Positions 379 through 1,818 of a DNA stretch of 64,000 nucleotides are shown piece after piece. This DNA is from an uncultured Saprospiraceae bacterium (GTDB taxonomy: Bacteria > Bacteroidota > Bacteroidia > Chitinophagales > Saprospiraceae), in NCBI GenBank assembly GCA_937921825.1, contig CAKZVK010000061.1:1-64000 (forward strand). Direction: 5' to 3'. The notes beneath the pieces are model-generated. The model saw nothing but the letters and a program-made list of their open reading frames with translations, made no database searches and was not told the origin of the DNA. The first letter of the stretch is position 1, and every line of letters starts with the position of its first letter. The translations under genes and the position numbers were made by a program.

Positions 379-404
379 AAAAGTTTACTTTGATGTAAAC
401 TTTT
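379..404. promoter_or_regulatory. Perfect inverted repeat, likely operator of the toxin-antitoxin operon
   Basis: AAAAGTTTAC and GTAAACTTTT are exact reverse complements separated by 6 bp. The outer pair C378/G405 also matches, giving 11-bp arms. It overlaps the proposed -33 element (TTTG, 389-392) and lies just before a TAnnTTTG -7 element at 410-417. XRE antitoxins typically repress their own operon by binding such palindromes, so this is the expected binding site of the HTH protein encoded at 894. Binding itself is inferred. Confidence 0.7.
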
Positions 405-417
405 GGTATTAATTTTG
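389..417 (+). promoter_or_regulatory. Bacteroidota-type promoter of the TAC operon
   Basis: TTTG at 389-392 and TAATTTTG at 410-417 match the Bacteroidota -33 TTTG / -7 TAnnTTTG elements, with 17 bp between them, slightly shorter than the common 19-20. If transcription starts a few bases after 417, the TTG at 420 given by the ORF track would be too close to or upstream of the transcript start. The toxin may therefore start further downstream or be translated from a leaderless message. Confidence 0.5.
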
Positions 418-419
418 AA

Positions 420-907
420 TTGAGTAATAAGAAAAGAGAATACAAATTAAAGTATGCCGTTTTACCTAGTGATGGTAAAGACAAGGCTGCTGTAAAATAT
501 TCACTTGAAACAGAATTTGAAATAGATGGTTTTAACATCAAGCGAGGTATATACAAACTCAAGAGAGACAACACGTGTTTCTATGATATCTTTCTGAAAA
601 AACTTGATAAAGACGGGAAAAAACCCGAAAATACTAAAGCTCAAATAGACGCTATCCTATTACTTTTAGCTCAAGATTTACCACCGCCACGAGATAAATT
701 TAAATTACTTAAAAAGGTAAACGATGAGTATGAAATTAGAATTGCAGAGTAAGAATATATCTCTTTAAACATGAAGCGCTTGGCTATGTTATCATCAATG
801 GTCAAATAAACAAGAGATCAGAAAAGATGGACCAAGTAAAAGAAATAAAGAAATTTAAGACTATAAAAAAACAGTTTTTAAATAGAGTAGAAGATGCAAA
901 AACTTAA
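420..907 (+). pseudogene. RelE/HigB-like toxin, split by a frameshift
   Basis: The ORF at 420-752 (110 aa) ends in a typical RelE/HigB core approach (KFKLLKKVNDEYEIRI) and then stops. From 740 to 907 the -1 frame is open and encodes VRIYLFKHEALGYVIINGQ followed by a Lys-rich helix, which is the missing second half of such a toxin. Frame 0 must be left between 740 and 752, so one shift (one base lost or two gained, a sequencing error, or programmed -1 slippage) would restore a protein of about 162 aa. The restored gene ends 14 bp inside the antitoxin gene (ATG 894), the usual toxin-first HigBA overlap. The start is uncertain: TTG at 420 is the only obvious candidate and adds about 40 residues beyond the common family length. 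The family as known cleaves mRNA on the ribosome; here function may be lost. Confidence 0.7.
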
Positions 908-1349
908 AGACATAATTTCTTCCAAGTATTATTGGCTTTTTAAACATCAAGGTTATGTTACAAATGAGATTCATAACTATCTCGTTGAAAAGAAAAAATC
1001 GGAGAAACTTACTCAAACAGAGTTCGGTAAAAAGTTAGGTTTTTCAAAAGGGTATATTTCTCAACTTCTAAACGGCAATAGAACTTTTGATCACAAGCTC
1101 TCCAAGATCGTAGAATTATCTCTAGCGATTGGGAAAGTACCTCTATTGGATTTTGTTGACATAGAGGATTACATAGAGGAAGAAAGTTTGAAATCTAGTT
1201 CACATTTACTTGAATCTATGAAAATGAATTGTAATTCAAATCAGGAGATTCTAACTGCGAATTGTAATAAGGATACAGAAAACAACTCACTTGAAAAAAT
1301 GTCAGTTGATTCAGCAAAGTTAGTAGACTCAAGCTATGGATTCTACTAG
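894..1349 (+). CDS. XRE-family HTH antitoxin with long C-terminal tail (HigA-like)
   Basis: A 151-aa protein. Residues about 40-70 form a helix-turn-helix (TQTEFGKKLGFSKGYISQLL) of the Cro/C1/XRE type. Residues about 95-151 form a polar, low-complexity tail ending in VDSSYGFY. In TAC systems the antitoxin carries such a tail (chaperone addiction domain), which is aggregation-prone and bound by the SecB-like partner; that reading is inference. Its start overlaps the 3' end of the frameshifted toxin, and its end overlaps the next gene by 14 bp, so the three genes should be translationally coupled. It probably represses the operon through the palindrome at 379-404. Confidence 0.8.
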   Translation: MQKLKDIISSKYYWLFKHQGYVTNEIHNYLVEKKKSEKLTQTEFGKKLGFSKGYISQLLNGNRTFDHKLSKIVELSLAIGKVPLLDFVDIEDYIEEESLKSSSHLLESMKMNCNSNQEILTANCNKDTENNSLEKMSVDSAKLVDSSYGFY

Positions 1350-1818
1350 TCTCATATCAATTGTAAGGATAAAGGAATTACTTTTCGAAGTCTACGATGC
1401 CCCTAAAAATTTTGGTAAGAAGTCAGATGGTTTAGATATTGATTTGGACTTCGACTTAGTAATAAAAGACAACCAAATAATTGTTTGGTGTCACATAAAC
1501 ATTTCGCTCAATATGGAAGATGAGTTATTTAAGCTCATACATACCGATTATGCTATCACATATGAGATTCAAGACCTTGAACAAGAATTAAAAAGTAATG
1601 AATTCAATTTAACAACTTCTCTATTAGGAATGTCTTATTCAACATTAAGAGGTTGTATCCATTCCAAAACACTTGGATATAAAATAAATAACTTTATCCT
1701 TCCGCCCCTTACTCCAAAACTAATTTATAAATACTATAAGAAAAAGAAAGACGAAGGACAGAGTAACAGACATGATACTGCTGACAAAACAGATAACAGT
1801 GAATCACCAGAAAAATAA
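1336..1818 (+). CDS. SecB-like chaperone of a toxin-antitoxin-chaperone module
   Basis: A 160-aa protein with the layout of SecB-fold chaperones: an N-terminal strand (IVRIKELLFEVY), a central antiparallel sheet region (LDIDLDFDLVIKDNQIIVWC), a second sheet region with FKLIHTDYAITYEI, and a final helix-plus-loop with NNFILPPLTPKLIYKYY. The LPPLT motif also occurs in the mycobacterial TAC chaperone Rv1957. It starts inside the antitoxin gene (14-bp overlap). Known TAC chaperones bind the antitoxin tail and protect it from proteolysis. A general export SecB is less likely because the gene sits in a TA operon. The C-terminal 20 residues are charged and probably disordered. Confidence 0.7.
   Translation: MDSTSLISIVRIKELLFEVYDAPKNFGKKSDGLDIDLDFDLVIKDNQIIVWCHINISLNMEDELFKLIHTDYAITYEIQDLEQELKSNEFNLTTSLLGMSYSTLRGCIHSKTLGYKINNFILPPLTPKLIYKYYKKKKDEGQSNRHDTADKTDNSESPEK

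Follow-up and report, generated by a model that had tools for sequence, protein, structure and literature searches.

In toxin-antitoxin-chaperone (TAC) modules, the chaperone holds the tail of the antitoxin and shields it from aggregation and from protease, and diversion of the chaperone frees the toxin (PMC5105189, PMC6377645, PMC11618068, PMC11980606). As such, these modules tie together protein quality control, a protease and a toxin, and some of them sense phages. The locus analysed here lies at the start of contig C61, within its first 64,000 nucleotides, a stretch that we call the window, taken from a 4.0-Mb draft genome in 172 contigs. On its + strand, a palindromic operator, a split toxin gene, an XRE antitoxin gene and a gene for a 160-aa SecB-like protein follow one another over positions 378-1818. 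The two overlaps of 14 bp that an earlier note had claimed can be read directly from the sequence, at 894-907 between the -1-frame piece of the toxin and the antitoxin gene, and at 1336-1349 between the antitoxin gene and the third gene.

The higB1-higA1-Rv1957 system of M. tuberculosis has the same toxin-antitoxin-chaperone order, an HTH antitoxin with a C-terminal extension and a chaperone of SecB fold (5mtw), and the residue pattern of the toxin family described here resembles the HigB/Gp49 type. It differs in that the window toxin is broken and that the window antitoxin ends in GFY, whereas HigA1 ends in Val-Ala; Rv1957 gave no sequence match by profile search. HigBAC of E. coli, a phage-sensing TAC (Mets et al. 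2024, cited in PMC11980606), is alike in its three kinds of genes and, probably, its Gp49/HigB-type toxin, but it belongs to a distant host group with distant sequences, and the window toxin is broken. In CmdTAC, the antitoxin is likewise guarded by a SecB-like chaperone, whereas CmdT is an mRNA ADP-ribosyltransferase and the description of the CmdTAC antitoxin, a pair of helices plus a disordered tail, makes no reference to an HTH (PMC11618068), a domain that the window antitoxin does have.

The third gene of the window also matches the PADLOC model PDC-M64C (E=3.3e-10), but the window antitoxin has only a weak match to the models of PDC-M64 (E=0.0017) and a toxin of the window type is not matched by them, which suggests a sister lineage. 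A typical PDC-M64 locus (L008:575-1950) consists of a toxin, an HTH antitoxin and a SecB-like gene, and from this gene content the uncharacterised candidate defence system PDC-M64 appears to be a TAC; PDC-M64 was not found by name in the literature searched. Given the candidate label in PADLOC and the likeness to HigBAC and CmdTAC, an anti-phage role is a candidate function.

The SecB-like third gene and its neighbours in Bacteroidota

The third gene (1336-1818, + strand) is intact, starts with ATG and encodes the 160-aa protein that the earlier note had taken for SecB-like, with the NNFILPPLTPKLI end, for which a likeness to a segment of Rv1957 had been proposed there, present as stated. PDC-M64C matches it over residues 7-132, and Pfam SecB (PF02556) stays below its cut-off (15.4 bits vs 26, E=0.018). 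Structure prediction and Foldseek bear the claim out. The AlphaFold2 model, calculated from an alignment of 21 sequences (A5) drawn from the window and public genomes, is confident (pLDDT 85.8, pTM 0.78) and has four long antiparallel strands, a long helix, a further helix and a disordered end, which is the SecB topology. Against the PDB, this model gave 19 Foldseek matches at E<=0.001, namely 15 SecB chains and 4 Rv1957 chains, with E values of 2.4e-6 to 2e-5 for SecB crystal chains and of 4.5e-5 to 2.4e-4 for Rv1957 in complex with the ChAD peptide of HigA1 (5mtw). A PDB sequence search with the chaperone profile retrieved nothing but E. coli SecB (E=0.28), so that it is the predicted structure by which the third gene is assigned the SecB fold. 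Within its own genome, the chaperone and the antitoxin are each present as a single copy, and a search of that genome with Pfam SecB gave no match. No relative was found when viral contigs, plasmids and phages were scanned with the chaperone as a single protein, or when viral contigs were scanned with the antitoxin; a structure search of viral proteins found SecB-like phage proteins.

PDC-M64C is present in 38 of 395 genomes of the class Bacteroidia, roughly a tenth. Among the Bacteroidia loci that were read, an HTH antitoxin lies directly upstream in 29 of 30, and in almost all loci inspected a toxin-like gene of 110-193 aa precedes the antitoxin, which means that homologues of the third gene reside mainly beside toxin-antitoxin genes and not mainly away from them. 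An antitoxin-anchored scan of genome contigs, unbiased as to the third gene, yielded 36 loci, nearly all from Bacteroidota. Three of them were excluded, L057 as a near-duplicate, L080 because the locus is truncated within the antitoxin, and L079 as an outlying multidomain protein, which left 33 in which the third gene was scored. A SecB-like third gene is found in 23 of these 33 loci, counting a divergent form, and a second antitoxin-anchored sample, based on whole genomes, gave the same picture. The same gene order and tight spacing recur in many Bacteroidota families.

In a branch of the Bacteroidales (L051:3453-3920, L052:3450-3911, L056:3459-3914, and also L062 and L075), the place of the usual SecB-like gene is taken by the divergent third gene, which encodes about 153 aa with the motif SICITNLRSYIANQTSYFPWG. 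It matches a SecB-like profile only weakly (E about 3e-3) and is not matched by any PADLOC model. The TAC module is also carried by a contig binned as Lokiarchaeota (L058), which is probably a mis-binned Bacteroidota contig.

The antitoxin, its C-terminal tail and the operator

The antitoxin gene (894-1349, + strand, ATG start) is intact and encodes 151 aa, and the HTH noticed earlier is real, with a Pfam HTH_3 match above the cut-off (E=2.6e-5). Related antitoxins across Bacteroidota share 34-53% identity in the best segment. Beyond the HTH domain extends a 55-residue tail (residues about 96-151; 1179-1346, + strand), so that the C-terminal extension typical of TAC antitoxins is present, and this tail is a candidate chaperone-addiction (ChAD) region. 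It contains no recognised ChAD motif; ChAD tails are unalike between TACs (PMC5105189). In HigA1, the C-terminal Val-Ala is a demonstrated ClpX degron and lies within the chaperone-bound region (PMC8165232). A C-terminal degron of this type, which is not a strict requirement for a TAC, was not found on the window antitoxin, which ends in SSYGFY and has no terminal Ala, and the antitoxins of its nearest relatives likewise end without one (ELV in L111, SES in L046, DLC in L048).

Antitoxins from loci with a chaperone are longer (median 138 aa vs 118 aa without; p=0.0003, relatedness ignored), as are their tails (p=0.0002, relatedness ignored), and a terminal Ala occurs in 20 of 34 antitoxins with a chaperone vs 0 of 12 without (Fisher p=0.0004, relatedness ignored). 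On a tree of the HTH part, the chaperone state changes about eight times, at least four of these changes being forced by well-supported branches, and the association of the tail and the Ala with the chaperone thus does not stem from one event. The idea that the terminal Ala is forced by an overlapping ATGA junction was rejected, because Ala is also seen in loci whose genes are separated by 0 to 10 bp.

The operator described in the earlier note could be confirmed as a perfect 11-bp inverted repeat, CAAAAGTTTAC-TTTGAT-GTAAACTTTTG, at 378-405 (unstranded), with the core GTTTAC-N6-GTAAAC at 383-400. Written as GTTTAS-N6-STAAAC, this core has exactly one occurrence in the 4.0-Mb genome, at the same place, and in 18 of 27 relatives GTTTA[GC]-N6-[GC]TAAAC precedes the toxin start by <=100 bp, mostly by 21-22 bp. 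The repeat is a probable, predicted antitoxin binding site, and its recurrence upstream of toxins together with its uniqueness in the genome is supportive of autoregulation by the HTH antitoxin, which would bind there.

The toxin family and the frame break in the window

Toxins of intact relatives have in common an N-terminal region, the motifs E-x-[KR] and L-R-x-Y, and a K...Q segment that leads into a long helix, with E85, R92, Y94 and K111 invariant and K87 and Q117 near-invariant. In order and rough spacing, E85, K87, R92, K111 and Q117 resemble E66, R68, R77, K95 and Q98, which line the catalytic pocket of the M. tuberculosis HigB-TAC (PMC9098466). Weak matches to Pfam Gp49 were obtained for 5 of 22 toxin relatives (best E=0.006), and when the structure predicted for the toxin of L046 (pLDDT 83) was searched with Foldseek, RelE, YoeB and HigB recurred, with weak matches only (E 0.2 to 1; best probability 0.85). 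No toxin relative was retrieved when PDB sequences were searched with toxin profiles. Because of the weak Gp49 and fold matches and the HigB-TAC-like residue order and spacing, the toxin family is probably RelE/HigB-Gp49-like.

That the toxin gene of the window is broken, as had been claimed, is borne out by a single frame change at about 746-752. The N-terminal part (420-752, + strand, 110 aa) has a TTG start and a premature stop, the C-terminal part (746-907, + strand; VRIYLF...NRVEDAKT, beginning VRIYLFKHEALGYVIINGQINKR) lies in the -1 frame, and the profile of intact relatives is split over both, with its positions 9-83 on the former and 86-128 on the latter. Both pieces are in register with the toxin of L036, the nearest relative, where it is unbroken, and the intact toxins of close relatives run across the region that is broken in the window. 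The toxin frame has no ATG, and the TTG at 420-422 is its sole common start, which is unusual in this group. While the toxin is intact in most relatives, the window copy, as sequenced, lacks the functional toxin gene of a TAC. The break falls between E-x-R and the R-x-Y...K part, so that the 110-aa product would be without half of the presumed active site.

Breaks are also seen in other members of the family. The toxin at L048:2558-2959 (the same locus as L040) has a single in-frame stop; antitoxin, chaperone and operator are all intact there, and the locus reads as a second antitoxin-chaperone remnant. The toxin of L100 changes frame within a run of eight A (1427-1447), which may be phase variation, a pseudogene or a sequencing error. 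These independent breaks indicate that toxin decay is recurrent in the family.

The explanation in which we have considerable confidence is that the locus belongs to a divergent HigBA plus SecB-like TAC in higBAC order, and that the window copy is most likely an antitoxin-chaperone remnant that is not itself toxic. As the frame break separates catalytic-type residues, what most likely persists in this copy is a repressor antitoxin together with its chaperone. The earlier proposal that the trio is a TAC is supported by the SecB fold, the linkage in 29 of 30 loci and the overlaps, with the proviso that this copy is probably a remnant and no longer works as a TAC.

A possible, if rather unlikely, alternative is that the toxin is intact in the living organism, the break being a sequencing or assembly error and the operon a fully working TAC. 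The break was read from a single draft assembly (172 contigs) and one genome of the species, so that a sequencing error could account for it; it concerns a single position, and the rest of the toxin, the overlap with the antitoxin and the operator are all preserved. Indel errors are common in runs of eight A, and the break in L100 sits in such a run. However, the break site in the window is not a long homopolymer, and the independent in-frame stop in the toxin of L048/L040 argues that toxin decay does occur in this family. It is very unlikely that the third gene encodes an export-type SecB whose position beside a toxin-antitoxin pair is incidental. Although TAC chaperones tested to date can stand in for E. 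coli SecB (PMC5105189), 29 of 30 homologues adjoin antitoxin genes, the third gene overlaps the antitoxin gene by 14 bp, and the family is patchy (38 of 395 genomes), unlike a housekeeping factor. Programmed -1 frameshifting would join the two toxin pieces and would fit the sequence conservation and the in-register continuation of the downstream frame, but we consider it highly improbable and rejected it because the slippery site is missing, no X XXY YYZ heptamer preceding the stop; moreover, the intact relatives have a single frame, and the breaks of other relatives lie elsewhere or are of another kind. The chance that these are three unrelated neighbours that form no module is negligible, as it finds favour in the low sequence conservation only, whereas order and tight spacing are kept across many Bacteroidota families.

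Proposed mechanism, genomic setting and significance

In an intact relative of this divergent HigBA plus SecB-like TAC, the RelE/HigB-Gp49-like toxin would probably act as a ribosome-dependent mRNase, and the HTH antitoxin would have two targets, binding the toxin and, to repress the operon, the palindromic operator. The SecB-like chaperone would hold the C-terminal tail of the antitoxin, which would thus remain folded and out of reach of protease. If phage proteins or unfolded exported proteins divert the chaperone, the antitoxin would be lost and the toxin would act. Of this scheme, the window itself shows gene content, SecB fold, operator and frame break, and every activity is inferred. Here we speculate, with a good deal of doubt, that the antitoxin-chaperone pair might have been kept after toxin loss for a role of its own, either as a chaperone-gated repressor or in anti-addiction against related incoming toxins, and that across the family a SecB-like chaperone and a tail with a ClpX-type degron might have been gained together repeatedly, giving a modular and evolvable sensor.

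The module is bounded by a tRNA-Cys(GCA) gene (1891-1964, - strand), a neighbour that is kept in sister species, in which the tRNA-Cys side and a 774-aa gene are conserved. Beyond the tRNA-Cys, the content is different in every sister species read, and the TAC module is absent there in all of them. These differences on the far side of the tRNA-Cys suggest a site of variable insertion and would fit acquisition by horizontal transfer. On the far side of the same tRNA-Cys, one sister species carries what looks by eye like an AbiEi/AbiEii pair (L094:211-1420), and a similar pair, again judged by eye, adjoins the TAC of L003 (1943-3140).

By itself, the window copy with its broken toxin is modest, and the wider Bacteroidota family is the more useful result. 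Judging from the sequences compared, a little-annotated version of the TAC module is widespread in Bacteroidota, in a lineage that is largely invisible to Pfam, the chaperone falling below the SecB cut-off and the toxin having no model. Since sister operons with and without the chaperone exist in this family, the turn of a plain toxin-antitoxin pair to chaperone dependence becomes directly testable.
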